The notes beneath the pieces were generated by a model, which was given only the letters and a program-made list of their open reading frames with translations, had not been told where the DNA came from and searched no databases. 64,000 bases of DNA from Ceratodon purpureus. Its lineage: Eukaryota; Streptophyta; Bryopsida; Pseudoditrichales; Ditrichaceae. Where the stretch lies: positions 3,918,624 to 3,982,623 of the forward strand of contig CM026428.1 of NCBI GenBank assembly GCA_014871385.1, written 5' to 3'. Of this stretch, positions 8,624-64,000 are shown piece by piece. Within the stretch, counting starts at the first letter, position 1. Each line of letters opens with the position of its first letter. Both the position numbers and the translations under genes were made by a program.

Positions 8624-9591
8624 TCATTAACGGAAATTTTAAGATACTTGAAAATTCTTGGTGATTTTTATACATGAAGAGTTCATTTTGGAGATGAACA
8701 TAAGTATAGTGCTAGATTTGATAAAGAAGCCATTATGGACTACATTATATGGACAAATAGAAATTAATAATTATATAAAAATCTAATGTTATCCTATGCA
8801 AAATCTACAATTCACTATAAATTATAGTAAATTTGAAGAATCATTTCAAATACTTTCTAAGCTGATTTATGAATTGAGCAAAAGTATCGTAATGGTGATG
8901 GTCGCAAAAGTTCAATATAACTACAATTCCAAGTCCTATTGATGAATTCAAAATCTCCATCCTTGTTGACAGAGTTTTATTTATTTCATTCAACTAATAG
9001 GCAAATTTTCATTCAAATATAATTACTTCATCAAAAATCTATATTTAAAATAATTAATATATAAAAATGGTCCTTAAATTCATTCAGTTTTTTATTTATT
9101 TTTGGCTTTCCAAAAAGACATTCGATAAAGATGGACAATTTCAAAGAATTCATGCAAGTCGAGTGTTAATCTAATGAAGTGTATAGCAAGACAGTGTTAA
9201 TCTCCTAAAATTATATAGAAATTACACAATTACGGCATTGTCCACTTCAAGCTTGGCTGCTATTGCCCTTGCTCTACCACAAAATTACATGACACAAAAA
9301 TTTGAATTATGGATTACGGAAAATAAGGGCAGCATTTTTGGTGAACACATGAGAGAAATTATCTAATTTTCTATAGGCATGAGTAAAAGACTTCACTCAA
9401 TGGTCAAGGAAGCCCCATTGAGTTTCGTAGTGTATTTTTCAACTATAGGGTGGGGGACCACAATAAAGTGAGTATTTTTCTCGAGTTCAATTGGACCTCC
9501 ATATGCGGCCTCCAGTTGAAATCAATCTCAACCAGAAAGCACCTCAAATCTCAGCTCCTCAAATATCAACTAGATCGCCTTGAGCATCCCC
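8624..9591. other. Spacer, no gene seen
   Basis: AT-rich; possibly more remains of the Harbinger element whose transposase relic precedes it, but no ends could be placed. Confidence 0.35.
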
Positions 9592-9977
9592 TTAGAGCAT
9601 CTCTACCCCTGCTCCACCACTGCGCCCGATGCGGGGCCGCGGAGGTTTGTTACGGGTCCGAACAACAAATAGGCACCCACCGGGACTCTCCTCTTCGGCA
9701 CTTGACTTGCAGGCTCCTGAAAAAACCTCGCGGGGTCCTGAATTTCACGTATTCCCCTTCTCTATAGCGTGTCCTAATTTTGACATTTCCAATATGTGAT
9801 GGAGATGTTGGGCAAAGTAAATGTGGAGCATCACCATTCGAAGCGGGTAGATGGTGTCAGGGATTTTACCGCAAAGGGGTGGGGGGCGATTTTTTTGCAA
9901 GCCACAGGAGGCTACGAGGACCCTCAATAGAGGGTTTCGCATGTATCATGTCAGGCGCAGGGGTGGAGATGCTCTTA
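9592..9977. mobile_element. PIF/Harbinger-type MITE with TTA target duplication
   Basis: A 380-bp element (9595-9974) lies between direct TTA copies at 9592-9594 and 9975-9977. Its ends are GAGCATCTCTACCCCTG and the inverted CAGGGGTGGAGATGCTC, differing by one base. A 3-bp TTA duplication and GAGCATC ends are typical of plant Tourist/PIF elements. The GC-rich interior has no transposase. Confidence 0.88.
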
Positions 9978-10370
9978 CCTAACTTATACTTCATCCAACA
10001 AAGATGAACCATACATATCCTGAAATTCGGAAGAATCCTTGAAGATTCTATCTTGGAAAATAGTTTGGGACATCGTTGGGTTGCACCTCAACATTAACTT
10101 AGAAAATTTATAATTTATAATTTTCAAATAGCGGCATCCAACTGAACCCTCATGCTTGAGGACTGGGTGAACGGTCATCTCAGTTGACCTAACAAATTGT
10201 AGATTGTTATTCAACTGAACATTTTTATGTGCAACAACACACAAACACAGAATGTCTACACATGTAAGATTCTAAGCTGTACAGTTCGATGCAGAAAGAC
10301 GGATGATTTAAGTGGGAGTTGAAGAGCCAGCAGCAATGAATGCCTGAATCCTGTCCCGCTTAGGTTCCTT
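9978..10370. other. 3' flank of the NECAP gene
   Basis: No gene. It probably contains the 3' UTR of the minus-strand gene that ends at 10371. Confidence 0.4.
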
Positions 10371-12823: not shown

Positions 12824-14450
12824 GTTTTCGAAATCGCGATTCCCCAATCATGCAACAACCCACTCACCAATATACCCCGATGTACACACCCAATTGCCCA
12901 GATCGACAAACACAACGCTCTCAGACCAATCAATCCTCCCAAGCGCTTCCGCTGCTCCGAGCGTGAACAATAACCCTAATCCAGGGGCAGGCGAGAGACG
13001 ATCAGGTGCTTCTAGAAAATGCGAATCGCGCCACGACCCAATCGACAATGGACCCCAATGCAGCCACCCAATTGCTCAGATCAAGGAGATTGGCGTGCCT
13101 CGGAGGGTGGATGAAAGCTCTGAGAGGGAGGTCGCGGGGGGTGTGGGAGGATTGAGAGGGGGTGGTGTTTTGGGTGCAATTTGAAGGCTGTCGATGTGCG
13201 CGTGCGATTGACTAAGTGGCGATTGAAGCGATTGATCGCCGGATTGCGAGCAGACATGGGCACAGTGAGTAGTCACGTCGCGGACGACCACAGTGTTGTT
13301 GAAGCTTCCCCGACGTGGCTCCGCGGGAAGGAGGCTCATTCCCAACACCGTCACTGCGCTTAAACCCGACAGTGTCTGTTATCTGTGACTTCAATCGGTA
13401 GTTCTCAGGCTAATGGAGTAGGGAATGTTACTCCTCTAAGTCAAAGTAGTTTGACTTGTGTTTTGATAGGGGAGAAAGGAAAGTTAGCAATGAGGGGTGG
13501 ATAGAATTAGAATTTTAAAGGGAAAAAGGTTATTTTGGATATACTTATTTGGACATGGCTTATATTTATTTGGACATCTAGTTTAACCCCTAAAATTCGA
13601 GGCCCGTTTTTGCCAATTTTCACTTATAAAATGCTGAAAATTTCAAAAAAATCCCTTTTTTATTTTTTATTTTTTTAAATGCTGAAATTTCAACCCATAA
13701 AGATTCTGATTTATCATGTTCACTAAAAAAATCTTGTCAAGAAATATTAAAAATCCTAACTGTGGTAGCTTGCAGAAGTTCCCTGCAACCCACTTTGGGT
13801 TTTGTGGAATTTTAGGGGTTAAATGTAGGAGTTGGTTATGGACTTTGTATCCATTGAAGGATGAGAGTTCAGCGTTGTTCTTGTGATGTGACATGTATCT
13901 CAATTAAAATTAAAAGGAAAGTAGTCCTTCAATACTTTGATGGAGTGAATTGATATTTAAATATGAAGATCTAAATGTATGGAAAGTTATTTACAAGTCA
14001 ATAGTCTACTTTGTACTGCCATATGTAACAAAATGGCCATGGAGGAGCAGGTTTAGTTCTTTATGACTTCTTTGTTGTAGTTATCATGTGAAGATTTTTT
14101 CTTAGAAAGCCCACAAGCCACATCAACAGAGTTTAAAGTCATTTGGCATTAAAGAGCCTCAAGAAAGGAAAATTGCGGTCAGTACCTATGATTGTATTTG
14201 ATCTTAAACAAACAATATCTATCACTTATTTACATGTAGAAACGTGAATATAATTTATATGATTTTATTTTTTTTAAGGATGTTTATACTCAATACCATA
14301 GAAGTGCTTAAAGTCAATGCTATCTACGTTGATTTTTTTTTATGTAGATGCTTAAAATTTGAATAAGTAAAATATGATGTTGATTTAAATTAAAGTTGGT
14401 TTTCATAAGTTTTAGCCTTATAATTTTGGCTATAGGAAAGTTTAGTGATA
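12824..14450. other. NECAP promoter region and spacer
   Basis: The first 550 bp above 12823 are GC-rich and would hold the NECAP promoter. Overlapping open frames there on both strands show no conserved protein. From about 13450 the DNA is AT-rich with no gene seen. Confidence 0.4.
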
Positions 14451-14651
14451 CTCCCTCTGTTTCTGAAAGAAATGGTGTTTTCCACAAAGTCTTTGTTTCA
14501 CAAAGAAACAATGGTTTCATCATTACTAGGAAGTCCACCGTTTACAGGTTGGCAGGTTGGCAGCTGATGCATTTACAGAGTCAAGGCGGCGTCACTGTAC
14601 CTAATCCCGGCCTAAAATGGAAAACACCATTTCTTTCAGAAACAGAGGGAG
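14451..14651. mobile_element. Stowaway-like MITE
   Basis: A 201-bp element with near-perfect inverted ends of 34 bp: CTCCCTCTGTTTCTGAAAG at the left and its complement at the right, continuing into AAATGGTGTTTTCCA. CTCCCTC ends preceded by TA are typical of Stowaway (Tc1/mariner) MITEs. TA precedes the left end; the right flank reads AATA, so the second TA seems mutated. Confidence 0.88.
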
Positions 14652-15878
14652 AATATTGTTAAACTATTATTTATCATGCGGCTTTAGATTTCAAAGAATT
14701 TTCCTCTTGTCAAGATATGCAACTGAATGATATCTGAACTTGGTACCTATTTAAAATATATTTTGATATACAGTTCATTCTTAAGGGTTAAATTAACATT
14801 CAAAATGTTATAAGTGCTCATAAGGAGATATTGTATTTCACATGACATCACCAGCACACTCAAAAAGAGTCAATGCATTGAACAATCCATAGATTACATA
14901 CATTTGTGTAGACTCCGTGACACTAATGCTGCATATTGTAACATAGAATGCCTTCTTACCAATGAATATGATCTAACAGATACATCATGCTTATTTTTTC
15001 ATTTATAGAACATTCATTACTTCCTACAAGATTAGGGTATACACAGTTTGCAAAAAGCCATATCCTGGGGGTATAAGGTTACACAGAAACAACACAAGTG
15101 ACTGCAAATATAATCATGTTTCAACTGCAAATATAATCGTGTTTCAACTGCAGATATAATCATGTTTCATATAGATAGAACTTTGTGTGGAATTGCACTC
15201 TGATGGACAAACACCCCACACAGCACACAGAACATGATAATTGTGTGCATAATATTGCCGGGAACTTTCAATTCAGACCTATTTCACAATCTGAATTGAA
15301 TGCTCTCCATGAAAACTTAAGGAAATCATTCTATCCCAGGAAAGTTTTGATATTCAGCAAAGAAGAAGTTGTGAATACAAAGATGATCTCACAATCTAGA
15401 CACAAAAAAACTTGTTCAAATAGGAATTAGAATTGAATGATTTTTCTTTCCGAAACAGAACCAAACCAATTCACATACATTCTGCGTGAGTTCCCGTCTT
15501 ACACTCATCAACTACTCCAAAACCTATGCGACACAGAAATCAACAAAAAAATTCATTCCTCTGACGAACAGATATGTGTAGGTGATGCATACTTAGGTTC
15601 ACGAATCTAATAGCTTTTTTCTCTTCACCACCAAATCCCCAGAATAATGAATTACCCCTAGAATTCAGTCCCTATGCAACCAATTCCGAACAAAGAAACA
15701 TGCCACGAGTGCACATGAGCTCAACAATAGCCATGGATGGATTCCAGGGATTTGCTTCTGGTGAGTTGAAAACCTTTTTTCCTCTTTTTTGCATACTAAT
15801 GTGCGTTGAGTACATGCCCAAAATTTCTACGAATTTCATGGAGTTCCCCGCGAAGGCCTAAAAGAATATGACACTAAC
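14652..15878. other. Spacer and bL28 3' flank
   Basis: No conserved gene seen. It includes three near-identical short words (TGCAAATATAATCATGTTTC) around 15100-15170. Confidence 0.4.
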
Positions 15879-16359
15879 CTAGTAGTCAGCCAGATTGATA
15901 CCGGCCTTCTTGGCCATGGCTGCAAGGCCGTTCCGCTCCACAGTCTTGAGCGCCTTGGTGGAGAGGCGCAGCCTCACGAACCGGTTGCCCTCCTCCCACC
16001 ACAGCCGCTTGTACTGCAAGTTAGGCTGCTGCAAATGCTTGGTCCTCTTCTTGGAGAACGACACCTTGTAGCCATTGTTCGCCTTCTTGCCCGTCAGGTC
16101 GCACACCCGGCCTACCACATCCCAAAACAACCCAACCACATCAACAAACAGAAACTCCAGCACACACACCTAATCATATCCGAGGAAGAGGATGATGAAA
16201 CTTACTGGCACGCGGTTGCACCAAGACGGGGAATGCAACGGAAGCAGCAGGCTGGGCGGAGGAGCAGGAGAGGGTGGTGCCGGAGAGCTGGGCCTGGCGA
16301 GAGGCGAGGAACTGGGGCGCCGTGGAGACGCAGAGCGAGGTCGCCAGGAAGGTCGCCAT
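15879..16359 (-). CDS. RPL28: Plastid 50S ribosomal protein bL28c
   Basis: Two exons (16359-16206 and 16111-15879) give 128 aa. Residues 1 to about 50 are rich in Ser, Ala and Thr with few acidic residues ([20 protein letters not shown]), as in a chloroplast transit peptide. The mature part is a clear bL28: [20 protein letters not shown], then [19 protein letters not shown], then [18 protein letters not shown], ending AGINLADY. It is a structural protein of the chloroplast large ribosomal subunit encoded in the nucleus. The splice joins codons as S/R within SRVCDLTG; the donor is GTAAG. The start was chosen as the first in-frame ATG; upstream codons lack an ATG. An 18-bp minisatellite lies about 270-385 bp upstream of the start. 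Confidence 0.95.
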
Positions 16360-45901: not shown

Positions 45902-48673
45902 TTTGAAAGCAAATAAAATAGAGCACAAATAATCATCACCTATATTTGGTGTATTAAGTATAATGGAGCAAATAATAAGTTGCTCTTGAAACCAGTCAGT
46001 CAATTTTTTACTACAAATTCCATGTCACTCCTTGTTTAAGGGTTTACGAAGATGAACTACTCTCATATCCAATGCATTATGTTGTTGGATTATGAGCAAA
46101 TAGTTCTTGATCTCAAATTGTTATAGTATCCAAATTTCAGACATTTCACTTTGAAGAGCCATGTATTTTTCATCTAGAGTTCAATTACAATGAGTTTTCT
46201 TGGCTTTAAATTTGATTTAATTTTCGAGTCTAATGTATGTGGTAATAATCTCATCTCCAATAAAAAAATGCTCTCAAGTTTTGGCAAGTATTTGAATTTT
46301 TAATAAAAAATTTAAATTAGAAAAAGAAACCTATAATGATGTTGTTTAATTCAACAAATGTTACTATCCTTCTTAGCTTTAATAAAATTGAGAAAAATTG
46401 GTCCAAAAAATTTATAATAGATATAGTATATATGAAATTAAAGAAGAGAGAATGAAAATAATACTCATAAAGAGCAATCATACATTAGTATTTCGTTCAT
46501 TCAATCCATCATAAATCACTCTGACGCTACAATCAATTAAGTAGTTCTAGCTACAAAAATACAATAAAAACACCTAGAATATTACAATGTTGGTATTTCC
46601 ATATTAATTTAGATTATTACAATGCTAACATTATTAATATACTATTACAATGCTAATTTTCTACATTATCTCCCATTATATATAATAATACCATAAAATA
46701 TTACAATGCTAGTATTCTATCTGATGTTATGTTATTGGATACCAGCCCCTTGCAATAAACCTCGACCTCGTCTAAATGACAAGGTTGGCCCTGTCTCTCC
46801 TCTTTCCCTCTCTTAATGTTTCCGATTTTTGGGGCCTGCGACCTCCGTCTAGTAAATTTGATGTTTTTTGGAACCATAGACCACATATTAGTCTAAGGGG
46901 GCCATCACATTAAGACCAAATTAATGTGGGGTGTTTTATAAGAATATGAATAAATATCTTATATTTTTTGTAAACAACCACTCTTAAGTATTGGCTATTG
47001 CATGAATATTGTAGAGGTATCATCCAAGTATCGCATATTTTATTTTGGTTTTTAGTTGAAAACTTTTTATATCAATCATTTTTTTGGTAAAATTAGTTGA
47101 CCAATTTGTAACTAGCCGCGGGTTTATCTCGCTCGTTGGTTAAGGGCCTCTTTACACTAGTGACCAAGGGCCGTGGCCAAGGTAAAATCTGCAATATGAT
47201 TGGAAGAGAAGAGCCGGCGGATTCGAGTACACTTTACACTAGCCATAAAAGGAGGAAGTGACCAAGAAGGAAAACGGATGAGAAAATGACATGGAATTCT
47301 ACATGTCCAGAAATGGATAAGGTTTCATAGTCACCCGGACAATGCGGCGAGACCACCAAAAGAGGTTCTCTGGCCACAATATCCGGGGACCAAGAGCTGA
47401 AAAATGGAAGAACCAATGGAATTTTTTTTTAATAACAATTTTTTAAACAATGAAAACCAGGACCCTATGAGCGGTTAGTAGCCATTCTAAGCGACTAAAA
47501 AATCCATAAAAATTTACAGAAATGTTCAAAAAATGAATTTTTTCTGGGATACCTTGACAATAACTTTGTGGAGCACCCAAAAATCATAAATATTTTCTTT
47601 CACAAGTCTAAGTATGCAAACCTGAAATTCGGAGAAATTTGGACGGGAATGTGGTCTACCTTACAACATGAGAGGCCAAATTGAGGCTCCAAAACGTGAG
47701 CCCCACTCAGAAGCCAGCCATGAATGAATGACTGAGTCACAGACCAACCCATGAGGTGATGAAACATAAACATGAGCATGAGCATGAACAGGAACATGAA
47801 CATGCCATGCTGAGGCCATGCAAGTGCGCAGCAGAAGCAGAATGAGCAGAATGAGCAGAAACAGAAGCAGAAGAATCCTCTCACTCCAGGTTGCCAAGGA
47901 TCTGCAATCACTGCACTCGAGCAACCAGGCATGGCCACCGATCTCACGCGCTGCGCCTGCGCCTGCCCATGCCCATGCGCATGCGCGTCCCGAGGATTGC
48001 CGTGCCCCGGAAGCCAATGCCAATCCCTCCCTCCAGGAGGACCACCACGCCACCACCATCAATATTTGGGCACCACTCCATGACTGCACTGCACTGCACT
48101 TCTGGTGAGTCTCTGCCCTCCCCTCCTGCTATGTATGTTGATGTCATGTGATGATTCATTGGAGCACTTGTTCATGAGAATTTGATCTGTGATGTGGGTT
48201 TGTTAGGACTGTTGTGATGGGTTTGTTTGTTTGCGATTTTTTGCTGTTGTTTTGAGAAGTGGGTTTGGTTTTTTGTAGCATGATAATGGCGAGGGGATGT
48301 GTGGAGGGGTTTGAGGTGGTGTAGCGGACTCTTTTGTGTTGTGAAGTATACTGGTGGAGCGCGAGGAGGATCACGGCGTGCTGTGCGAGCATCGAATTTG
48401 GTGTATGTGACCTAATTTGGGGTGTAACAGGTTAGGCGAGGTTAGTTGTGTTTTTGGGTACTTTCTTTTAAGTTTGGAGTGGGCACGTTGTGTTATCTAC
48501 TCGTTGGTTATTGGGTGCATTTGTTGCTGCTTTGATGGAGTTTAGGGCAGAGTGGTGGAAGGGTAGGGTTGAGAGTTTAGCCCCTGCATTTGATTTCAGG
48601 GTTTGAAAGGGAGTGGATGTTGATGTTTTGTTGGAATTGCATGTGACGGCAGTGTGATTGGCGAGAGGGGGCG
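45902..48673. other. Spacer and ELMO-gene upstream region
   Basis: No gene to about 47700. From 47760 to 47880 there are hexamer-like repeats (GAGCAT, GAAGCA, GAATGAGCA), then GC-rich DNA. CTTCTG followed by GTGAGTCTC at about 48104 looks like the donor of a 5'-UTR intron ending before 48674. Confidence 0.4.
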
Positions 48674-49624
48674 ATGAATCCGGGAGGCTCTTTGCGGAGG
48701 AGAATACACCATGAGGATGTTGGAGGGCGGAAGTATGACCGGGAGGAGTCATCAGCAGTCGATGGTTTGAGCGAGCCTCTGTTAGGTCATCGCAGCAGTG
48801 ACGACGATGACGATCGTGAGTGGAGGGAGACGAGGAGAGAGGAGCAAGTGTGGGCACATAATGTGTCCAAACTCCTGGCGCAGTGGGCGCAGTGGTTCTC
48901 CACGGTGGTGGTAGCGGGTGGTTTCCGGGTGGGCAACAATTTGTTCATGGCGGTACTTGGTCGCCAAGCCAATGGCGCTGACAAGCCTGAATACCACCTC
49001 TCTCCTGTTCAAGAAGGGCGGTTGGAGAAGCTTCAGCAACGCCTTGGGGTGGCTTTCGATGGATCGTTGCCCCAGCATCAGGATGCTTTGAAAGACCTGT
49101 GGAAGGCAGCGTTTCCAGGCAGAGTCATGCCAGGACTTGTATCACCTCAGTGGAAGGAAATGGGTTGGCAAGGCAATGACCCTTCTACTGATTTCAGAGG
49201 AGGAGGATTTATCTCGCTGGAGAACCTGCTCTTTTTTGCGCACATATTTCCAGCAGTGTTTCAGAGATTGTTGCATAAAGAAGAAGGAAAAAGAGCGGAG
49301 TGGGAGTATCCGTTTGCTGTTGGGGGGCTCAACATCACCTTCATGCTCATACAACTGCTCGATCTCCGTGCAGCAAAGCCCAGTTCGTCTTCAGTGACGA
49401 CATTTTTTAACATCTTGGCTACGGATGAAGATGCCTTTGACATGCTGTATTGTGTAGCATTCCAGATGCTGGATGCACAGTGGTTAGCATTAGGGGCTTC
49501 CTACATGGAGTTCAACGTCGTTCTGCAAGCCACTCGGGCGCAGCTCGAGAAAGAATTGGCATTGGAGGATGTAGATCGTGTTGAAGACCTTCCGTCTTAC
49601 ATTGCTCTTGTGAATTCCACATGA
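48674..49624 (+). CDS. ELMO/CED-12 domain protein
   Basis: One uninterrupted exon encodes 316 aa from ATG 48674. Residues 1-60 are polar and acidic with a DDDD run. The ELMO domain spans roughly residues 105-290: LSPVQEGRLEKLQQRLGVAF, LKDLWKAAFPG, WKEMGWQGNDPSTDFRGGGF (the hallmark W-x4-WQ-x-xDP-x-TDFRGGG), ISLENLLFFA, VGGLNITFMLIQLLDLR and FDMLYCVAFQMLDAQW. Plant ELMO proteins have been linked to small-GTPase signalling and to cell-wall/pectin adhesion functions; animal ELMO domains act as scaffolds or as Arl2 GAPs. Which applies here is not shown by the sequence. A plausible 5'-UTR intron lies upstream. Confidence 0.93.
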   Translation: MNPGGSLRRRIHHEDVGGRKYDREESSAVDGLSEPLLGHRSSDDDDDREWRETRREEQVWAHNVSKLLAQWAQWFSTVVVAGGFRVGNNLFMAVLGRQANGADKPEYHLSPVQEGRLEKLQQRLGVAFDGSLPQHQDALKDLWKAAFPGRVMPGLVSPQWKEMGWQGNDPSTDFRGGGFISLENLLFFAHIFPAVFQRLLHKEEGKRAEWEYPFAVGGLNITFMLIQLLDLRAAKPSSSSVTTFFNILATDEDAFDMLYCVAFQMLDAQWLALGASYMEFNVVLQATRAQLEKELALEDVDRVEDLPSYIALVNST

Positions 49625-53593: not shown

Positions 53594-55000
53594 CTATCGT
53601 CGAAGTTGTGCAATTAAGTCCTTTACAGCTTGAAGGTGGTCCAGTTTCCCTTCGAAGACATGGCAGGCGTGGATGTAGCGAGTCTCCTCCTTCGATAGTT
53701 CCTCTGAGAGTCGTTCAACCATTGCCGTCTGGCGCCTCTTCTTGAAGTCCCATCCTGCAAGTCTGGTGGCCGAAGTTTCGATATTGTCCTGCAGAGATTT
53801 ACAAAGACTTTCGCAATTTTTGACAACCGGTTTGCCTTCACGTTTCTGCTCCACAAGCCGCATCTGCGCTTCCTCCAGTGTTGCACCGGCCATGATGTTC
53901 CTTGCGCTCTCCCACTCTCCTATCGTCCTGTTATGATTGTCTCTTTTTTCTATCACCTTGCGCTCGACGTACTTGAGGCGATCCTTCTCACTCTTCAGGC
54001 GTGCACGGCTCTGCTCGAGCTGGTTCAGGGCCTCGTGTCGAGCTTCCATTACTTTGTTTCGCTGAGCGTCAACCACATCCTCAACCATAGACCGAACTTC
54101 GAGCAACCCTCTCATGGCCAAGCACATTAGGTCCTCGTCTATTTCTCCGTTGGGGCAGAGTCGAGTTAGGAAGCCGTCACGTGGAAGAGGGTTGTCCGCA
54201 CGGGTGACAGGGGCTGACACTGCTTCCGAGGGACCCGACCTTCGAAGGCGAACATTCCAATCGGGAGAGGTGTGGACAAGTCCGGAAGCGACTGAGGCTG
54301 TGCGGTGGCTACCTCGTCATCATCTCCCGACATTTCTTCAGGGTCCGTCACAGGAAGCTGCAAATTTTCCATAAAGGAGGATAAGCGACTCATCTGGTAA
54401 AAACAAGCAGTCCCGAAATATTTCACATGATTAATCAATAGCGACAGTTAAAATATCATGCATCAGATAGGAGACAAACTAGCAAGAAAATCAGTTGAAG
54501 TGGCTTGGAAAATGAGCCGAACAGTAAATTACAAGGTGTAAGTGTCATTTACAAAGTCATACCTCGCTATCAGGGCCGGGAGAGACCTTCGTTAGGGGCG
54601 GGAGAGGTTCCTTAATTTCACCATACTCTTCGAGAACGCGAGGTACCCCGGAATGGCTCTGATGGGGGTGGGTTGCCTTATAGGCAAACTCTGCCCAATT
54701 CACATCCAGGCCCACTGCTTCCGCCAGCACTCCACGTGCGAAGTGAAAGGGGAGCACAGCAGTCAGAGGCCACTCGACCTGTAACACACGCCGATGGAGT
54801 TCCCGGATGTACAACTCGTAGTTGGCGTTGCCATGGTTATCGAAGGTGTAGCCGGAGTTCGACTTCGGACCGAAGAAGCTGGCCATCTCCTGTCGGCTCG
54901 GGAGGTACACCGTGGGGGTGACGGTGGGAGTGACACCAAAGTTGCCAAGCCGCATGTACTGCACGAACCAATCGATGGAAGCAGGTTCAGGCGTAGACAT
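53594..55000 (-). CDS. Unrecognised coiled-coil protein
   Basis: Modelled as three exons (55000-54563, 54393-54240, 54144-53594), in phase, 380 aa. Exon 1 from ATG 55000 starts MSTPEPASIDWFVQYMRLGN and is globular in character, with VEWPLTAVLPFHFARGVLAE. Exon 2 (MSRLSSFMENLQLPVTDPEE) is acidic and proline-rich. Exon 3 is a long coiled coil, RSMVEDVVDAQRNKVMEARH, LEQSRARLKSEKDRLKYVER and RLSEELSKEETRYIHACHVF, ending VKDLIAQLRR. I do not recognise the family. The exon 2/3 junction is the weak point: the coding frame changes between 54240 and 54144 and I explain it with an intron of about 95 bp having a CTAAC branch-like motif and GT donor GTCGGG. The alternative is a frameshift, since the exon 3 frame stays open upstream to about 54320. 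Confidence 0.55.
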
Positions 55001-56847
55001 TCTGCACGACGACGAGCGAAGTAATATAGGGGAATTCGCCGTGAGGACGGAAGGAGTCAGAAGGGACCCAAAGAGTATACTCAGAGTACTGCGAGAGGAA
55101 GATGGATGCGGTGATCCCACCGACGATCACAACGATACTAGGCAGCGGTAACTTGGAAAACAACAGTCACATATAAACAGGGCCGAGTCCGCTGGCCGGA
55201 AATGAGATAACAAAAGGCAAGTCCGCTACCACCTCGACATAGCAAATGTTCACGAAAGCAGAAGCAGCATTACAAGAGAGACGAAGCAGAGTTCTACGAC
55301 TGGATTGTAATGGTCACATACCTCGGCCCAATGGGGATTTGTAGCAGACATGGTGACCTAGATCATCAATCGCTGCCAAACTTCATTGCCATGCAGCCAT
55401 GGCCGAATCTGTGAAGATCTCCTCCGCATGCAATTTTAGTACCACCTTGTCAAATCCTGGAATGATGTCTCGAGGTTTAGGGTTTAAGGCTTCAGCCATC
55501 ACGTCTCATACTTGGAGAACTTCAGTTCTGTGATGATGCACAATCATGAGACATCACAATTCCCAGTGAAAGTGGATTCACAAAGAGAAATAGTAAGATA
55601 AGTGATAGCATCACCACAGACGATGACCCCATGCACCATGCAGATGAAATGAACAGAATCGACGAGATGGGTACGGGAAATCGGTGACGTCGCGTCAATC
55701 AGTTCCCATTTCGTTCCCATAAAACCTAGGGAACTGGCTATGTTCTGAACGCATGACCTTACCTAGCATGAGATCCCGGACATTAGTACCGGGTGGTTAA
55801 GGGTATTGAGTAGGGATGGGTATGCATCAGGGTATGGGTATGTCACACCTGGACAGTTGATACATAGGTGTAGTCCCGGGTTTGAAGCGCCTCCGGTCTA
55901 CTGATCACCTCCTTCAAGAATTCGAGCGAGGCCGACGGGGTAAACATCTAAGAGCTCATCCACAGGTCAAACAATACACAAGGCTTCAGCACGATACAAA
56001 TTAATCATTGAAGAATGGCAGATGGCCTCAGCCGATTAGAATGGAAGCCGTCGTTCTTTCTGTAAGGTACATATAACATTGTGGACAGGCAACGAATCGA
56101 CGAGGGAATCAGCAAATTCGATAGACGGAATGTGTACTATCTAAGCCACACTTGCAGGTACTGTGCGATTCAGGGACTACTTCAATAACCGAAGGTGAAA
56201 CTGCCGGCAATTGTATGAGTTCAACCTCTCTGGATCGAGAACAACTGTCCACAGGAAATGTCTACAAAGAGATGCAAGCTATGCAGCATATTCGACTTTG
56301 ACATTACGGACAATATATCTAGGTATCTCGCGAATCCACATAAACAGCGCAGTGCAATTCAAGGACAGACAGGAGCTTAATGAATATACGAAGTGCTTAA
56401 GCGAAGTGGGAAAGGGATTCACCAGTAGTGGAAGAGTATCATGAAAATAGATAGAAAAAGTAGGCAAAGGCAACAATAATAAAACCATTACAGAATAGAA
56501 AACGTCAACATACCAACACTAGGACAATCCGAAAGCTCAAGGTTGACGCTGCCAGGAGGTTGCTCAATGCCATTACGCACTGCCATGTAAAATACTGCCC
56601 TTGCTATGTCTCTCCTAACCAGGGTTGTCTATTCGGACGGACATGGGCAAAATTTCCGGACATAGACGGACGGACGGACGGACAGACCGGTCGGTCCCCG
56701 GACATAATCGGACATTGAGGGGAGGAGGAAAATTACTAAGTTAGTTTTTTTTTTTTACAACTTACCTATAGGGGAAACATATTGATGACATGGACAACGA
56801 ACGATGACGGGGAATTCCACATATGCAAAAGGGGTGCCAGCATGTGT
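55001..56847. other. Spacer, no gene seen
   Basis: Presumed promoter of the minus-strand coiled-coil gene and spacer. At 56665-56690 there is a short GGAC tetranucleotide tract (ACGGACGGACGGACGGACAG). Confidence 0.4.
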
Positions 56848-57003
56848 AGGGGGCGAGAGCGGGTACAGGGGGGGGCGCGAGCGGGTTCAGGGGGGGCGCG
56901 AGCGGGTTCAAGGGGGGGCGCGAGCGGGTTCAGGGGGAATGGGCGCGAGCGGGTTCAAGGGGGGGCGCGAGCGGGTTCAGGGGGGGGCGCGAGCGGGTTT
57001 CTC
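56848..57003. repeat. G-rich minisatellite, block 1 (3' side of RING gene)
   Basis: About seven units of GGGGCGCGAGCGGGTTCA with variable G runs. The strand reading G-rich is plus. It ends about 250 bp beyond the stop codon of the RING gene. The open frames across it are artefacts of the repeat. Confidence 0.92.
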
Positions 57004-57255
57004 GTGCGGCCCATTTTGTAGATAGTAAATTTTTGACAATGCAAAAAAACCTAACATTTTCATCAGAATAATATATTGGGGCTAAGCGCAATGACAAATG
57101 TGTAAATTCAGATACTCGTGAGCCAAAATACATGGACTTTGCAATGTTGTATACATTTATGAAAGTAAAAGCATTTCATTACCAATTCAAACCAAAACAT
57201 TACAAAAACTGTAGTATATGAAAACTAGTCACTTAGTACTAAGTTGTAACTATTC

Positions 57256-59637
57256 CTATTCATCTGCATCTACTCCCGCTGTGCCACTTGGTCCCGCTCC
57301 ATCGTCCAGCGTCAAGCTGCGCCTGGCTCTCGTCCGTGTCCGCCGGAATGGGCCATCACCTTCACTGAGAGAACGCAAAATTTGCGAGTTCCTCAATTCT
57401 CTCAATGTACGCAATGTCTGTGGAGAGTGTTCCTCCAGAAGAAAGTCAACAGCCTCATGCTTGAAAATTAACTTCCACTCCGAAAGAGACATTTGGACTG
57501 CATCTCGGGCGGTCAAAGACATGAATTGACCTTCGAGGTCTGTAACCAATTCCCCGTCCTTGTTCCATATGAGGCCTTTTGGGTGATTACCAAGTTGGAA
57601 CTTCCTATGCTTCGGATCCCAGTATCCATTCAAAGTCTGATAGAAGAAATTTCGTTTCCCTTGGTCCTCCTTCTTTGATCCAATTATCTTCTTTGCCACC
57701 CTCACAATCTGATTGGGGTCATCCTCCCACCCCAACTCGTCACTTACATTGCTCTTGAAGACCGAGTGAGTCTGGGCCCGCCAACTCCAAATCAAATCTT
57801 CCCCCCACATGTTGCGGTATTGTTCACCTGGTGTGTTTTCGGGATTTCTCTCATGGCTTGGTGGCATGTATGGAGTGAGTCCAAAAACCTCGTACAAGCG
57901 TTCATGGAACGGGGATTTGCACACCGGGCAAAATCTCCTTACCAAAAAAATGTTAATTAAACACATTGGATGGAACATGTGGGTACATGATCCAACTGCC
58001 CATCCACCCTCAGGACCAAATGTATTTAGACACACACTACATTCTTTTGAACCATCCATCACCCACGGTTGAGGATTTGGCCAAAGCTTTCTGCTATTAA
58101 CTCCTTCCTTCATTTGAAGATCATGGCACGAAGTTGCGTTCTTCACATCGAAATTCAACTGGGCCCAATCTATGAGTTCAGGATTCGATTCTTGCTTTGG
58201 CATGTTATCTGGATACATATCATCTGCGCTAATCCATGAAGTGAGGCCAAAATTCCTTCGTCTGTTGTGTTGCAAGTACGATTCGTCGATCTTCTTGAAC
58301 TCTAATGCAATTTGGCGACCGCGATCAACGCTGAGAATGGTTGCCACTTTCCACTCGTAGTATGCTTTAGCAAACTTTGAAACAAGGAGCCGCAATTCAT
58401 TATTGGCTCTCATCAATGTCTCCACTTCTCCCGTTCGAGCATTGGGTGGAAATGACAAGGAATCTTGACTTAATGGTCCATCGATGTCCACATAGGGTCG
58501 CGGGTATGGGGCTGGTGGAGGCAATATCACTCCAACTCGTCGTCGTTTTGCTGGAGTGGAAATATTCTCCAACACACCGGCCGTCGCAACATCAACCGTG
58601 TTGTTGATGTAAGATTCATCCACCAACATTGGATCTTGAACTACAGGTATATCATTGGCTTGAGAAGACTGAGGTCTTTCTCGTTCTTGCAATTGATTGC
58701 GCAAATCTGATATTACTGCATCTTTTGCTGCTGATTCCAATCGTAGTTTTCGGATGGTCTCTTGTAACTCTGCAATGAAGCCATCCTTTTCTATAACCTG
58801 TAATTGCAACTCCCCGACCTCCTCGGTCTGGTTAGAATGGTCATTTCTAACTAGAACCGGCATGCCAAGAACCATCGTAGGTTCAGTTCCGACCACCTCC
58901 AAATTAGCTGCCGTATTTGGATCGTTTTCCACGAAGATGGTGTTCGCATCGTCGTGAGGTTCTATGACGTCCGCTGGATGGTTCACTGAAGGCTCTACAG
59001 CCATATTTGCTGGTGCTGCAATTCTACGTGGCACTCTTTCTCCACGACGACCATCGGAATCAGAATCTGGTTCAGACTCTGCTGTATCAGGCTCCCGCAC
59101 TTGTGTTTTTTCCTTCATTTTTTTCCCCAGGCCACCATCTGCGTATTTCCTTTGTTTCGGAATGTCACGCTCTGTCGGCGCCCTAACACTCGGCGTGGAT
59201 TTGATGGTGGACCAATCCACCACTTTGTGAAGCACCACCTCAGCACACACCATTCTGCAAATGAACAATGGTACTTCATTGCGTTCGACACATCGTTGCT
59301 TGTATAGATGCTGGTAAACTTGTATAGAACGTTCAACAAACTCCGCATTCAAGCAATAATAGAGGTTAGCCTTGTCTGAGATCCTGTGTTTTCTGTGCCG
59401 ATCATGTGGAAATATTTTTGTGATGTGGCACCACTCAATGAATTCCTCGCATGTGGAATATTTCCACGGTTCCGGCTCATCTTGCCAACCTCTAAATGCC
59501 AACTTCGTCGGGTTGTTCAGCACATGAAGCCGCTTCTTCATCTTCTTACCACCACGCTTCCGTTCACGATCTCTGATTTTTTTCTTTTCGGCCTTGGTGA
59601 GTGGCCTTTCCTCCGCCGGATCTGGGTTTCCCTCCAT
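57256..59637 (-). CDS. Intronless 793-aa RING-H2 protein, probable E3 ubiquitin ligase
   Basis: A single uninterrupted frame of 793 codons from ATG 59637. The N-terminus is strongly basic (KAEKKKIRDRERKRGGKKMK). Residues about 50-135 form a Trp/Tyr/Cys-rich segment (YSTCEEFIEWCHITKIFPHD, ANLYYCLNAEFVERSIQVYQ). An acidic Ser/Asp stretch follows (DTAESEPDSDSDGRRGE), then a coiled coil at about 270-318. A RING-H2 finger at about 533-574 reads CSVCLN, SCTHMFHPMC, then FCPVCKS, giving C-x2-C...C-x-H-x2-H-x2-C...C-x2-C. The last 200 residues (WGEDLIWSWRAQTHSVFKSN, FFYQTLNGYWDPKHRKFQLG) are conserved-looking but unknown to me. RING proteins usually transfer ubiquitin from an E2; that role is inferred. 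A TATA box lies 334 bp upstream beside a G-rich minisatellite. No introns, unlike the other long genes here, except ELMO. Confidence 0.85.
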   Translation of the reverse strand: MEGNPDPAEERPLTKAEKKKIRDRERKRGGKKMKKRLHVLNNPTKLAFRGWQDEPEPWKYSTCEEFIEWCHITKIFPHDRHRKHRISDKANLYYCLNAEFVERSIQVYQHLYKQRCVERNEVPLFICRMVCAEVVLHKVVDWSTIKSTPSVRAPTERDIPKQRKYADGGLGKKMKEKTQVREPDTAESEPDSDSDGRRGERVPRRIAAPANMAVEPSVNHPADVIEPHDDANTIFVENDPNTAANLEVVGTEPTMVLGMPVLVRNDHSNQTEEVGELQLQVIEKDGFIAELQETIRKLRLESAAKDAVISDLRNQLQERERPQSSQANDIPVVQDPMLVDESYINNTVDVATAGVLENISTPAKRRRVGVILPPPAPYPRPYVDIDGPLSQDSLSFPPNARTGEVETLMRANNELRLLVSKFAKAYYEWKVATILSVDRGRQIALEFKKIDESYLQHNRRRNFGLTSWISADDMYPDNMPKQESNPELIDWAQLNFDVKNATSCHDLQMKEGVNSRKLWPNPQPWVMDGSKECSVCLNTFGPEGGWAVGSCTHMFHPMCLINIFLVRRFCPVCKSPFHERLYEVFGLTPYMPPSHERNPENTPGEQYRNMWGEDLIWSWRAQTHSVFKSNVSDELGWEDDPNQIVRVAKKIIGSKKEDQGKRNFFYQTLNGYWDPKHRKFQLGNHPKGLIWNKDGELVTDLEGQFMSLTARDAVQMSLSEWKLIFKHEAVDFLLEEHSPQTLRTLRELRNSQILRSLSEGDGPFRRTRTRARRSLTLDDGAGPSGTAGVDADE

Positions 59638-59754
59638 CGTGGTGTACTGGTAAAGTTTTGTGTGTTAAAAAACACACCAACTCCTCAAAACTTCCCCCAA
59701 TTGATTTTACAATTTTCCTACGTGGTTGATTATGGTATTGTAACTATACTTTGT

Positions 59755-59926
59755 GGCCCACCCAAGTATTCAGCAATAAGCCACCGTGAGGTAGTTTAGG
59801 GCCCGAATTCCCGGATGAGCGTACAAAATACGGTTGAACGAGGTACGTGGCGTTGTCAAAATGCTGTAGACCCCACCCAAGTACTCAGCAATAAGCCACC
59901 GCGAGGTAGTTCAAGGCCTGAGTGCC
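59755..59926. repeat. Duplicated block in the RING gene 5' leader
   Basis: CCCAAGTATTCAGCAATAAG followed by CCACCGTGAGGTAGTTTAGG at about 59760 recurs at about 59876 as CCCAAGTACTCAGCAATAAG and CCACCGCGAGGTAGTTCAAG. The spacing is about 116 bp. It lies between the TATA box and the start codon of the RING gene. Confidence 0.85.
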
Positions 59927-59946
59927 AAGGTGGAGCTTAAAAAGTG

Positions 59947-60100
59947 GGGGGGGGGGAGGGCGCCCCCTTCACTTATATAGTCGGGGGGGGGGGGGAGGCG
60001 CGAGCGGGGTCAGGGGGGGGGGCGCGAGCGGCTGAGGGGGGGGGCGCGAGCGGGATCAAGGGGGGGCGCGCGCGGGTTTAGGGGGGGGCGCGAGCGGGTT

Positions 60101-60135
<35 letters not shown>

Positions 60136-60262
60136 CGCGAGCGAGTTAGGGGGGCGCGAGCGGGTTTGGGAGGGGCGCGAGCGGGTTCAGGGGGAGGTGC
60201 GCAAGCGGGTATGGGGGGGGCGCGAGCGGGATCAAGGGGGGGCGCGAGAGGGTCCCCCCCTT
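59947..60262. repeat. G-rich minisatellite, block 2 (upstream of RING gene)
   Basis: A dozen or so units of GGGGGGCGCGAGCGGGTTCA with variants CAAGG, GTCAGG, TTAGGG, and a G run of over 30 at about 60102-60135. The RING TATA box is embedded in its left end. Confidence 0.92.
59971..59982 (-). promoter_or_regulatory. TATA box of the RING gene
   Basis: On the minus strand GACTATATAAGT, with poly-C/G minisatellite directly upstream (59983 onward) and the ATG 334 bp downstream. It is nearly identical to the kinase-gene TATA at 61910. Confidence 0.75.
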
Positions 60263-60659
60263 AAAACAAGATCTCATTTCCTTAGGAGTAGCATTGAAGA
60301 AGGTTGGAAGACAATAATAAAAACAAATGCAATGGATTTTTTCACCATTTCTCTCAAAAATAAAATTAAAAATTAAAAATTAAAAAGAGATATTAAAATA
60401 AGGAATACTGATTTGAATAATTTGGGGATGAGATATCAAATTATAGAAAAACAATCATGACTATAATAAGGGACTCGGGATAAAAAGGGATGAATAACAT
60501 GGGATGAAAGAAGTTATCAAGATGAATAAATCTCATGGTGATTAGAAACTGAGTTATGCCATAACGGAATACTGATCTAATGCACCATGAATAATATAAT
60601 GTTGACTATAAAAAAATTAGTGTTTTAATATTAGAAGAGATGTGGAAATCTAAAAAAGA
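60263..60659. other. AT-rich DNA between minisatellite and satellite
   Basis: No gene seen; poly-A/T words such as AAAATTAAAAATTAAAAATT. It may be diverged satellite. Confidence 0.4.
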
Positions 60660-61560
60660 TAAAACATTGGAAGAGACGAAGGGAATAAAATAAAATCAAT
60701 ATCATTGAGAGGAAGAGATAAAAGGAATAAAATAAAATCAATAGCATGGTGTGGAAGACAGTTGAATTAGAGTTCAAAACAAAAATCTATATATTTCATT
60801 GTACATACGGATCCTACAATGCTCTAACATATAATTAAAAATATAAAGAATCATAAAGAAGGGCTCGATGCAATTGGTTTGGCGGATAAACGGAATAAAA
60901 TTAAATCAATAGCATGGAGTGGAAGAGATAAAGGGAATAAAATTAAAAGAATAGCATGGTGTGGAAATACGCAGGATTAGAGTTTAAAAAAATAAAAAAT
61001 ATAATGCATTGTACATACGGATCCTACAATGCTCTAACATATAATTAAAAATATAAAGAATCATAAAGAAGGGCTCGATGCAATTGGTTTGGCAGATAAA
61101 CGGAATAAAATTAAATCAATATGGATGGAGTGGAAGAGATAAAGGGAATAAAATTAAAAGAATAGCATGGTGTGGAAGAGAGTTGGATTAGAGTTTAAAA
61201 AAATAAAAAATATAATGCATTGTACATACGGATCCTACAATGCTCTAACATATAATTAAAAAAAAAAAAAAAAAAATCATAAAGAAGGGCTCGATGCAAT
61301 TGGTTTGGCTGATAAACGGAATAAAATTAAATCAATATGGATGGAGTGGAAGAGATAAAGGGAATAAAATTAAAAGAATAGCATGGTGTGGAAATACGCA
61401 GGATTAGAGTTTAAAAAAATAAAAAATATAATGCATTGTACATACGGATCCTACAATGCTCTAACATATTATAAAGAATCATAAAGAAGGGATGGATGCA
61501 ATTGGTTTGGGAGATAGACGTTTTAAAATTAAATCAATAGCATGGAGTGGAAGAGAGCTG
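60660..61560. repeat. AT-rich satellite of about 210 bp, four copies
   Basis: The landmark GTACATACGGATCCTACAAT starts at 60801, 61011, 61222 and 61438, spacings of 210, 211 and 216. The rest of the unit (GAAGGGCTCGATGCAATTGG, ATAGCATGGTGTGGAA) repeats with it. One copy has an A run of about 20 at 61259. Confidence 0.93.
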
Positions 61561-61707
61561 AATGAGAGGTTGTGCATGTATAAAATCCCAATAGTTTCTA
61601 TTTTTTAATTTGTTTTATTTTATTTTTTTCTCTTAGAAAGTAGTGTAGAGATTTGACTATTTCCAGAAGAAAAATAGAAAATAAACAAATAAGTTGGAAA
61701 ACAAAAG

Positions 61708-61908
61708 GTGGGGGCGCGAACGGGTGAAGGGGGCGCGGACGGGTACGGGCGCGAGCGGGTACAGGGGCGCGAGCGGGTCGGGGGGCGCGAGCGGGTACGG
61801 GGGGGGGGGGGGGGGGGGGGCGCGAACGGGTATAGGGGGGGGGGGGGGCGCGAGCGGGTACAGGGGGGCGCGAGCGGGTTCAGGGGGGGCGCGAGCGGGT
61901 CCGTGGGG
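61708..61908. repeat. G-rich minisatellite, block 3 (upstream of kinase gene)
   Basis: About nine units of GGGGCGCGAGCGGGTACAGG with long G runs, ending directly at the kinase TATA box. It is the same family as blocks 1 and 2, with the G-rich strand on plus. Confidence 0.92.
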
Positions 61909-61909
61909 G

Positions 61910-61920
61910 ACTATATAAGG
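61910..61920 (+). promoter_or_regulatory. TATA box of the kinase gene
   Basis: ACTATATAAGG sits directly after the minisatellite and 149 bp before the ATG at 62069. The downstream sequence GGAGAAGCTCTCGCCCCCCT resembles the C-rich repeats at the right edge of the window. Confidence 0.8.
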
Positions 61921-62068
61921 TGGGGAGAAGCTCTCGCCCCCCTCACTCCTTCCCACTGCGGCTCCTTGTCCTGACGTGTGAAAACACGCCTTGCTTGGAA
62001 CTGCTTATGTGGGAAGTCTTCATTGGGGCGGGGGGGGGAAGTTGTTGATTACAGGGATTTACTTTGCG

Positions 62069-63649
62069 ATGTCTTCTAGACAAGGCTCCGGCAAGCGGCC
62101 TATGTATGAGGACTTGGATGCTCCAGATGCGGTGGACCCTATGAGTTGCGTAAGACCTCATGGTTCTACTGGTTCTACTCCTTCATCTAGCTCGAAGGGT
62201 AAAAAGAAGAAGAGTATTCCAGCGCACGAGAAGGATGACGGTTATCCACCATTGGAGTATACGCATTTCATCAGGAAGGTGACCGTCGAGTACTACAAGG
62301 CCCGTACCATACGAATGTTGAAGGCAATGTACCTTGATCACGGAGAGAATGGTATCTACAACCTCCAACGTGATTTGGAAAGGGAATTTTGGAGCGCATT
62401 GGAAGAATCAGAGTTGTACATGGATTGCAAGACGAAGTATTTTCACAGCCCGAAGTGGTTGACACAACAAGTGAGTAGTGCTACGACAAATGTCATTCAT
62501 GTGTTCGAATCACATGTGAAGAAACCACAAGGCGAAGAATGGAGCAACCAAGACAAAGTGTTTATTCAAAAACTGACAACGGTTCAGGAGGCATGTCAGA
62601 GGTGTTCTAAAGGGAAAACAAAGATTATGCCTTGGAATGAGCAAGCATTGAACTCAGCATTGGAAGCACACATGTATGGTGCATTGATATGGATTCCGGT
62701 TACGGCCAAGGTTGTGCCATTATGTGGCTTCAATGCCGAGGGGGGGTATGGCAAAGTGCGAAAAGTGCGAATAGCCAATATGAAGAAAATTCCAATTCAC
62801 ATAGAATTTGCGGGAAAACTTTCCAAGGCTAAAACCGAAGTGAAGAAGCGGGAGGAACGGGCGATTGAGGCCACAGTTAACCCCGTAGAGCATCCGGGTG
62901 TGATAAAATTTTGGGCCATTCACTCGAAGACCATGGAAGCTTATACCCTGTGGTGGAATGGAGATTGCCTCCGCAACTTCCTCAAATTAAATGAGAAGGC
63001 AAGCGAGGCAATAGATTACAAAGAAATTTTGAAGTCGAGGGATATGCCCATGGAAGAGTGCCAAAGAATTGTTGCCTATCAAAAGAACCGGGGAATGTTG
63101 GCGTGGAGTCTCATCTACGTTATGGACATAGTACATAAGGCTGAAATCCTCCACAACGACTTAACGCCATCCAACATTCTACTTCACTTTCCACCTCATG
63201 ACAAGGATAAAGTATATATTGGTGTGTGCGATTGGGGTGTGGCAAGCAGAGTCATTGAGAAGAAGGCCTCCCCTTATGGTGTGATGGACCCCGATGAACT
63301 TGTACAAGTAAAGGAGAGGAGGGTAGGAGTTGCACCGGAGTTGTTCTTTTTATATGGCAAGAAAGATGATGAGGAACGGAATTTGGAGCGCATGAAGAGG
63401 ATGCATCCATGTACGACGCTATCTGATGCATTTTCGGTAGGCCATTTGGCAAAGAAGATATGGAGAGAAGAAGATTGCCCAGAACTCTTCAAGGATTCAA
63501 TCTCAAAGATTGTATTCTCATCAAAGTTGGATGGCTTGCTTAACGAAGATCCTACAAAGAGGCTTTCACTTGCAAAAGTTGTGAATGATTTGATGAGCCC
63601 CCCTTACAACTTCCAAGCTCCCAATGGTTGTTTTAGATACACATTGTAG
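62069..63649 (+). CDS. Intronless divergent protein kinase
   Basis: Single exon, 526 aa from the first ATG (62069). Residues 1-50 are Ser/Lys-rich and disordered (STPSSSSKGKKKKS). Residues about 55-215 are a domain I do not recognise (YPPLEYTHFIRKVTVEYYKA, DLEREFWSALEESELYMDCK, NEQALNSALEAHMYGALIWI). The kinase domain spans about 218-520: Gly loop AEGGYGKVRKV near 225, Lys in FAGKL near 250, catalytic loop HNDLTPSNILLH near 362, GVCDWGVAS near 388 (DFG as DWG), APE near 422, and the late Arg in DPTKRLSLAKV. The invariant Lys, both Asp residues and Asn are kept. HRD is HND and the usual Lys after it is Thr, so activity is possible but not certain. The TATA box and minisatellite lie upstream. 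There are no introns in 1.6 kb. It is divergently arranged with the RING gene. Confidence 0.85.
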   Translation: MSSRQGSGKRPMYEDLDAPDAVDPMSCVRPHGSTGSTPSSSSKGKKKKSIPAHEKDDGYPPLEYTHFIRKVTVEYYKARTIRMLKAMYLDHGENGIYNLQRDLEREFWSALEESELYMDCKTKYFHSPKWLTQQVSSATTNVIHVFESHVKKPQGEEWSNQDKVFIQKLTTVQEACQRCSKGKTKIMPWNEQALNSALEAHMYGALIWIPVTAKVVPLCGFNAEGGYGKVRKVRIANMKKIPIHIEFAGKLSKAKTEVKKREERAIEATVNPVEHPGVIKFWAIHSKTMEAYTLWWNGDCLRNFLKLNEKASEAIDYKEILKSRDMPMEECQRIVAYQKNRGMLAWSLIYVMDIVHKAEILHNDLTPSNILLHFPPHDKDKVYIGVCDWGVASRVIEKKASPYGVMDPDELVQVKERRVGVAPELFFLYGKKDDEERNLERMKRMHPCTTLSDAFSVGHLAKKIWREEDCPELFKDSISKIVFSSKLDGLLNEDPTKRLSLAKVVNDLMSPPYNFQAPNGCFRYTL

Positions 63650-63864
63650 TTCCATAGTGAATTACGTTTGGAACATTTTGATTGCCTATGTGGCCTTGTT
63701 TGCACATTTCTAATATTTTAATAAATCGTTTTTTCGGCGTATACATGCCTTGGTGGAACATGAAATGGTATTGTTGGTTTTGTAATGGAATGAACAATTG
63801 TTTTTAAAAAAAAAAATTAAAAAACTGTATGGTCCATTCACCGGGACTGCCCCTCGTACAAGGG
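63650..63864. other. 3' flank of the kinase gene
   Basis: AT-rich, with AATAAA-like words (TTTAATAAATCG at about 63717) suitable for polyadenylation. Confidence 0.4.
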
Positions 63865-64000
63865 TGCCTCCCCCCCCTCTGGAAGCTCGCGCCCCCCTTT
63901 GCAGTAGGTTGCGCCCCCCCCCCCCCCCCCTTGGAGAAGCTCGCAGGCCCCCCCCCCCCCCCCCCCTTGGAGAAGCTCGCCCCCCCCCCCCCCCCCCCCC
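63865..64000. repeat. C-rich minisatellite at the right edge (block 4)
   Basis: Three units of TTGGAGAAGCTCGCCCCCC-like sequence separated by C runs of 10-20, running off the window. It resembles the kinase leader just after its TATA box (GGAGAAGCTCTCGCCCCCC at 61925-61943), so it may lead to another gene of the same kind. Confidence 0.85.

Follow-up and report, generated by a model that had tools for sequence, protein, structure and literature searches.

The right-hand end of the window, the whole 64,000-nucleotide stretch of moss DNA analysed here, almost certainly carries the left part of a cut-and-paste DNA transposon of the hAT superfamily. The element is ~11.75 kb long and has three intronless genes, encoding a RING-H2 protein, a divergent protein kinase and a transposase. 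Our high confidence applies to identity and anatomy; the steps proposed below for an accessory role and for anti-silencing fall outside it. In the window copy the left end alone is visible. Its remainder would lie within a 10-kb run of N (window coordinates 64001-74000, from C8:3982624 onward), and we infer the right end and transposase from other copies. A sequence-only reading had assigned the RING and kinase genes, possibly with more to the right, either to one repeat-bordered gene family or to a mobile unit with its own promoter. The hAT anatomy, the dispersed copies and the presence of all three genes in one unit elsewhere bear out the mobile unit. The third gene escaped that reading because its place in the window copy is taken up by the assembly gap.

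Table 1. Features of the element in the window.
Feature	Position	Strand	Remarks
hAT-type element, left part	56620..64000	+	~7.4 kb of ~11.75 kb
Presumed left target-site duplication CTCCTAAC	56612..56619	+	From sequence; partner would fall in gap; duplications present in other copies
Left terminus CAGGGTTGTC	56620..56629	+	9-bp perfect terminal inverted repeat with right end in C3 copy
Left terminal region with GGAC repeats	56620..56828	+	Kept in L001, 77% over 214 columns
Left subterminal minisatellite array	56849..56999	+	TRF; 22-bp unit, core GGGGCGCG; position steady in 25 copies
RING-H2 protein gene, intronless, single open frame	57256..59637	-	793 aa; Pfam zf-RING_2, E 4.1e-6
Second, slightly different copy of conserved 5'-leader element	59757..59785	-	
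Conserved 5'-leader element GGTGGCTTATTGCTGAGTACTTGGGTGGG	59872..59900	-	Identical in L001
RING gene TATA box ACTATATAAG	59972..59981	-	Exact match
Minisatellite array upstream of RING promoter	59990..60252	+	TRF
AT-rich tandem repeat (210 bp) separating the divergent RING and kinase promoters	60682..61556	+	Other copies have the repeat too
Minisatellite array upstream of kinase promoter	61711..61900	+	TRF
Kinase gene TATA box ACTATATAAG	61910..61919	+	Exact match
Divergent protein-kinase gene, intronless, single open frame	62069..63649	+	526 aa; Pfam Pkinase, E 1.9e-10
Start of reversed C-rich array, cut by gap	63867..64000 (TRF block 63892-64000)	-	Spacer differs; core equal but reversed

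The full layout is seen in a gap-free copy on contig C3. This copy is 11,750 bp long and runs from a CAGGGTTGTC terminus through the RING gene (678-3059 of the copy, - strand), the kinase gene (5394-6974, + strand) and the transposase gene (7858-10506, + strand) to a AACAACCCTG terminus, ending at 11750. Both ends carry CAGGGTTGT, a perfect 9-bp terminal inverted repeat. A CAGGG-type start is typical for the short terminal inverted repeats of hAT elements. The C3 transposase, which is shorter than in most copies listed, matched DUF659 (E 7e-33) and Dimer_Tnp_hAT (E 1e-6), both above the Pfam cut-offs, and, among PDB sequences, Hermes (E 2.4e-4). A BED finger was not among its Pfam matches at E up to 0.1. 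As in other members of the family, the transposase very likely recognises the element ends, perhaps together with the subterminal arrays, and would so bring about cut-and-paste movement. In the window, homology between copies stops at 56604-56620 among the plus-strand copies listed, and the element starts at 56620, 228 bp to the left of the segment first described. The minisatellites had been regarded as borders. This view is replaced here; the true borders are CAGGGTTGTC and AACAACCCTG, flanked by 8-bp duplications. Rfam and tRNA scans of the window found none.

Copies of all three genes are abundant in the moss's own genome. We scored at least 57 RING copies (96-100% identical, contigs C1-C13, from 1685 first-look candidates), at least 82 kinase copies (96-100% identical, 1414 candidates) and at least 51 transposase copies (99-100% identical, 1426 candidates), the query's own locus being counted in each list. 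The RING and kinase searches scored near-identical copies only. The scored copies are the best protein matches, so figures for intactness and selection are biased upwards. Internal stops nonetheless occurred in 11 of the 57 RING genes scored, in 6 of the 82 kinase genes and in 3 of the 51 transposase genes. Gene order was consistent wherever the three lists overlap. Thirty-two divergent RING-kinase pairs were no more than 6 kb apart (57 RING genes and 82 kinases scored), and 37 kinase-transposase pairs were on the same strand at 739-935 bp (82 kinases and 51 transposases scored). A single RING-kinase pair within 8 kb had another arrangement.

Of 30 fetched RING copies, 25 had the exact terminus at the expected position; the printed flanks vary from copy to copy. 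Both ends were located in seven copies. Target-site duplications matched at 8 of 8 positions in four of these (L014, L015, L024 and L030), for which the chance probability is ~2e-5 per copy. They matched at 7 of 8 in two (L012 and C3) and were absent from one (L033). Twelve right-end windows were fetched, and in five of them no end was found. Many copies, and tandem repeats beside transcription units, would also be expected of a host multigene family spread by segmental duplication, with the minisatellites as recombination hot spots. We dropped this explanation as highly improbable. It is contradicted by the target-site duplications at precise ends, by the scatter over 13 contigs and by the transposase at a fixed place.

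The RING and kinase genes are each a single long exon, as the sequence-only reading had stated. The kinase has EFAGK, HND and DWG motifs; an AlphaFold2 model of the kinase alone had a mean pLDDT of 33 and was set aside. Searching the PDB by sequence with the kinase and RING proteins gave generic kinase and RING matches only, and NCBIfam and PHROGs returned nothing convincing. A plasmid tblastn search with the kinase as sole query found no relative. Large DNA viruses commonly have intronless kinase and RING genes, and an inserted large eukaryotic virus could have brought both. Against this stand the full hAT anatomy, which led us to drop the viral origin as the least probable of those considered, and four IMG/VR scans (kinase, RING protein, kinase core and RING alignment). 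In these scans, whose reach is close relatives only, there were matches to the patterns, none of them encoding a relative. A connection with RING repeats of the Marchantia Y chromosome was likewise dropped, nothing relevant being among the entries listed.

Two diverged relatives of the element were identified. The first, L001, comes from another source, labelled as a cyanobacterial MAG, and its RING protein is 65% identical to that of the window. Terminus and layout are common to the two, and the repeat unit is not. What is visible of L001 is limited to the RING gene and a single end. No second CAGGGTTGTC was found in L001, whose contig may stop before the kinase, and a kinase search of its genome, run without a positive control, gave no match. 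The second relative, seen in one copy and not as far as its left end, lies beside the window. Identities are 36% for the transposase, 29% for the kinase and 26% for the RING protein. This element has minisatellites, a candidate end, AACAACCCTG, and, upstream of some genes, TATA-like boxes; its first ORF matches zf-BED with an E of 0.0098, which is below the cut-off of that model. RING and kinase genes co-occur in two divergent elements, and recurrence of the trio at 26-36% identity makes the association look old.

We also considered the minisatellites and their relation to transcription. The first three blocks in the window are G-rich on the + strand and the fourth is C-rich. Array orientation with respect to transcription differs, and blocks lie beyond the 3' ends of both genes, as had been noted. 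Exactly two matches to ACTATATAAG occur in the 64 kb, compared with 0.07 expected, and 0 of 100 shuffles reached two. Both adjoin an array, in agreement with the box-at-minisatellite arrangement described earlier. With up to 3 mismatches allowed, GGGGCGCGAGCGGGT has 28 matches (0.15 expected). Twenty-seven fall inside the first three blocks, so the remaining window is essentially free of the repeat; the statement that it has none needs amending for one weak match at 54595. Searching for many intronless ORFs with the same start had been suggested as a check. Consistent with that suggestion, ACTATATAAG lies 342-353 bp upstream of the ATG, adjoining the array, in 27 of the 30 RING copies fetched; in L021, L027 and L028, the remaining three, no such box was found.

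The distance from the last core to the TATA box is 6-51 bp in 27 RING copies, and the RING promoter has 4-12 cores (30 copies). In the C3 copy, all three genes have an upstream minisatellite that stops at a TATA or TATA-like box; the reversed array lies before the TATA-like box and ORF of the transposase. Array units differ between the window family, L001 and the second element. An array ends close to the TATA box in L001, with another repeat unit, and close to the TATA-like box of the second element's kinase; the RING gene of that element has no clear TATA box. Both the position of the arrays and the fact that diverged relatives keep array and TATA together suggest that the arrays are likely promoter-proximal elements of the three genes. 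A different, rather doubtful, reading is that they serve only as subterminal repeats for transposase binding, spread inward through unequal exchange and without a role as promoters, with expression governed by the TATA boxes and by host factors. Subterminal repeats near the terminal inverted repeats are present in most hAT transposons, according to excerpts of PMC10368747. Furthermore, the outermost cores of the C3 copy are ~250 and ~239 bp from the two ends, in inverted orientation, and the corresponding ranges are 230-260 bp on the left (25 copies) and 235-273 bp on the right (7 copies). Inward spread does not sit easily with an array of its own near the TATA or TATA-like box of every gene (27 RING copies; kinase and transposase in C3), nor with the same placement of other units in L001 and at the second element's kinase.

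Comparison of the RING gene in the window copy with that of L001 gave dN 0.27 and dS 1.16 over 789 codons, and a dN/dS of ~0.23, a rough ratio since dS exceeds 1. Among the RING copies themselves, mean dN was 0.0071 and mean dS 0.0228, a ratio of 0.31 in a biased sample of 252 pairs of stop-free copies. These ratios argue that RING is under purifying selection. Conversely, an ordinary hAT transposon could have captured two host genes, in the manner of Pack-type elements, and carry both unused. The host families of kinases and RING proteins are large, and some copies contain stops. That plant DNA transposons take up foreign genes is recorded in excerpts of PMC6446971. We consider this passenger role unlikely given the selection on RING, the same three protein types in the second element and the promoter design that the RING and kinase genes share with the transposase gene in C3. 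Instead, RING and kinase are likely to be working accessory proteins of the element, because the frames are open, RING appears to be under purifying selection, the trio recurs in an element that is highly divergent, and RING also occurs in another source. Their role is probably to counter silencing or to regulate transposition.

How they might act is suggested by analogy. Substrates of the RING and kinase proteins could be host factors of chromatin, silencing or repair, or else the element's transposase, and one of the element's proteins could bind its arrays, much as in the anti-silencing system of VANDAL and VANC; we regard this mechanism as a whole as possible, though not the expected outcome. 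More tentatively still, the elements may form an old moss lineage of three-gene hAT transposons. In such a lineage, a ubiquitin ligase and a kinase would be dedicated counter-defence proteins, directed at the fast-changing minisatellite promoters and ends of their own element. Such a system would be an independent counterpart of VANDAL/VANC acting via post-translational modification. If the lineage keeps kinase and RING under selection, it would help to show how plant transposons use phosphorylation and ubiquitylation to evade or direct host control, with targets made predictable by the element-specific arrays. There is also a warning for annotation: near-identical intronless 'RING' (at least 57) and 'kinase' (at least 82) copies of this kind are transposon genes and not host signalling families.

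Literature searches, made without Repbase, turned up no element of this kind, and to our knowledge described hAT elements encode only transposase. Hermes, Ac and Tol2, of the hAT superfamily, are alike in having an 8-bp target-site duplication, a short terminal inverted repeat, a hAT dimerisation domain and repeats inside both ends (excerpts of PMC10368747). The moss element differs in its added RING and kinase genes, its ~11.75-kb length and its GC-rich, variable arrays before each gene and near the ends; in Hermes, the ends flank the transposase gene (same excerpts). Arabidopsis VANDAL elements with VANC are similarly multi-gene plant transposons. However, they belong to the Mutator superfamily and make 9-bp duplications, and excerpts of PMC6446971, from which this account is drawn, do not identify VANC as either a kinase or a RING protein; the moss element has a hAT transposase and 8-bp duplications. 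Anti-silencing has been shown for VANDAL/VANC, whereas for the moss element it is a proposal. Pack-type elements are also DNA transposons with non-transposase genes. Unlike these, the moss element has full-length open genes that recur in a diverged element, with RING apparently under purifying selection.

The sequence-only reading had located the ORFs, two ACTATATAAG boxes and minisatellite blocks in the window, and these placements were borne out, far above chance expectation. The fourth block has a spacer unlike that of the others; its core is identical but reversed. The window occupies C8:3918624-3982623 in a 362.5-Mb assembly, which we searched with protein queries. First-look candidates numbered 1685 (RING; not a copy count), 1414 (kinase) and 1426 (transposase). 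Only the best were scored; hence, the following counts, each including the query's own locus, are lower bounds tilted towards intact copies. There were at least 57 RING copies (96-100% identical, each covering at least residues 3-793), 82 kinase copies (96-100%) and 51 transposase copies (99-100%). Stops interrupted 11/57, 6/82 and 3/51 scored copies, respectively. Of 30 fetched RING copies, 23 were stop-free, and these had a mean identity of 98.97%, dN of 0.0071 and dS of 0.0228 (252 pairs). The promoter region contained 4-12 cores in the fetched set, with ACTATATAAG at -342 to -353 in 27 copies.

The gap-free copy on contig C3 reads, as adjoining stretches, RING (-), kinase (+), transposase (+) and the end AACAACCCTG at 11,750. 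Among the listed copies, this order recurred in 32 divergent RING-kinase pairs less than 6 kb apart and in 37 pairs in which kinase and transposase share a strand and are separated by less than 5 kb; RING and transposase were divergent and less than 12 kb apart in 16 pairs. The single differently arranged RING-kinase pair within 8 kb was in a cluster on C11. Incomplete pairing fits lists limited to best-scoring copies; truncated copies may be an added cause.

We next consider the element ends. Among the copies listed, plus-strand copies compared in full lost left homology to the window at 56604-56620, and in L022 and L036 homology stopped earlier, within the left array. The exact left terminus was placed as expected in 25/30 fetched RING copies, and printed flanks outside it varied. 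The right end was located in 7/12 fetched right-end windows; in L036 it was present and the left end was not recognisable. Both ends were located in seven copies, including C3. The target-site duplication was exact in four of these (L014, L015, L024 and L030) and matched at 7/8 positions in L012 and C3; L033, with both ends located, had none.

Because of this anatomy, it is nearly certain that the first element belongs to hAT. In Pfam, the C3 transposase matched DUF659 (7e-33) and Dimer_Tnp_hAT (1e-6); among PDB entries it matched Hermes (2.4e-4). At 882 aa it is below the length of most listed copies; the reported frame was 1109-1112 aa in 42/51 scored copies.

Features and loci, in window coordinates unless a contig or locus is named
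Feature	Position	Observation
ELMO/CED-12 family ORF	48647-49624 (+)	E 2.7e-49; left of element; presumably a host gene
Flanking ORF pair	53594-54316 (-); 109125-109925 (+)	Near-equal proteins (by eye); probably part of another repeat; first ORF without Pfam match
Fourth minisatellite block	63867-64000	
N run	64001-74000	10 kb; second element to its right
AACAACCCTG	90789-90798	Candidate right end of second element
CACTA-type transposase ORF	101498-103177 (L005:7722-9401)	Transposase_21, E 9.6e-71
Kinase copy	C8:4137174-4138751 (+)	~156 kb right of window kinase, protein 100% identical to it; either very recent local jump or assembly duplication
Two RING copies on C11	C11:11139919-11142297 (+); C11:11143597-11145975 (-)	Tail-to-tail, two stops each; flanked by two kinases, one stop each; as in palindromic duplication of a single element
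TIR and NB-ARC-like host ORFs	C3 element coordinates 14412-16290	~2.7 kb past right end; translation judged by eye
Inverted arms of L001	L001 816-910; 4832-4906	93-96% complementary; right arm starts 2 bp outside CAGGGTTGTC terminus; possibly another repeat that received the element insertion

The second element is known from one copy. Identity to the first element is 36% for the transposase C-terminal ORF, 29% for the kinase and 26% for the 1060-aa RING protein. A further 500-aa protein is related to the RING N-terminus. The minisatellites are GC-rich, with a sequence unlike that of the first element. An array is directly adjoined by CTATATAAG at the kinase gene. At the transposase gene GTATAAAAG lies ~110 bp past the TRF-called array. 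For the 500-aa gene the sequence is GCATAAATGG; the RING gene offers no more than CATATATGG. Because of this distance and these boxes, the TATA rule holds less well than in the first element. The kinase motifs EFAxK, HND and DWG are kept in both lineages; APE was detected only in the first. Both lineages also keep the RING ligand pattern.

When GTDB genome contigs were scanned with a segment of the RING protein, a single locus emerged: L001, 4906 bp long, on a contig that carries the label of an uncultured Synechococcales MAG. Its sequence suggests a plant contaminant, probably moss, within a soil bin. The RING gene is full-length, intronless and 65% identical to that of the window, with Cys replacing one ligand His. 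Across 789 aligned codons dN was 0.27 and dS 1.16; the ratio of ~0.23 is rough because dS exceeds 1. The design is as in the window, but the repeat differs: its 21-bp unit contains the core CGCGCCCC, and the final core stops 7 bp upstream of ACTATATAA. The two genes share a 29-nt element in the 5' leader. Past the 3' array of L001, a 210-bp conserved stretch stops at CAGGGTTGTC.

Selection, for RING alone, and the presence of all three gene types in a divergent element suggest that RING and kinase serve the element; the manner is conjecture. We found no description of such a three-gene element in the mainly open-access literature searched, and an earlier description is possible.

In the C3 copy, GGGGCGCG cores share one orientation in the left subterminal, RING-promoter and kinase-promoter arrays, and take the opposite orientation in the transposase-promoter and right subterminal arrays. 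The transposase array terminates beside GTATAAATG. The outermost core is separated from the left end by 230-260 bp in 25 copies, and from the right end by 235-273 bp in 7. In these positions the subterminal arrays resemble the subterminal repeats of hAT elements that are bound by BED domains (PMC10368747). In being variable and element-specific, the arrays resemble the VANC targets contained in VANDAL elements (PMC5735166).
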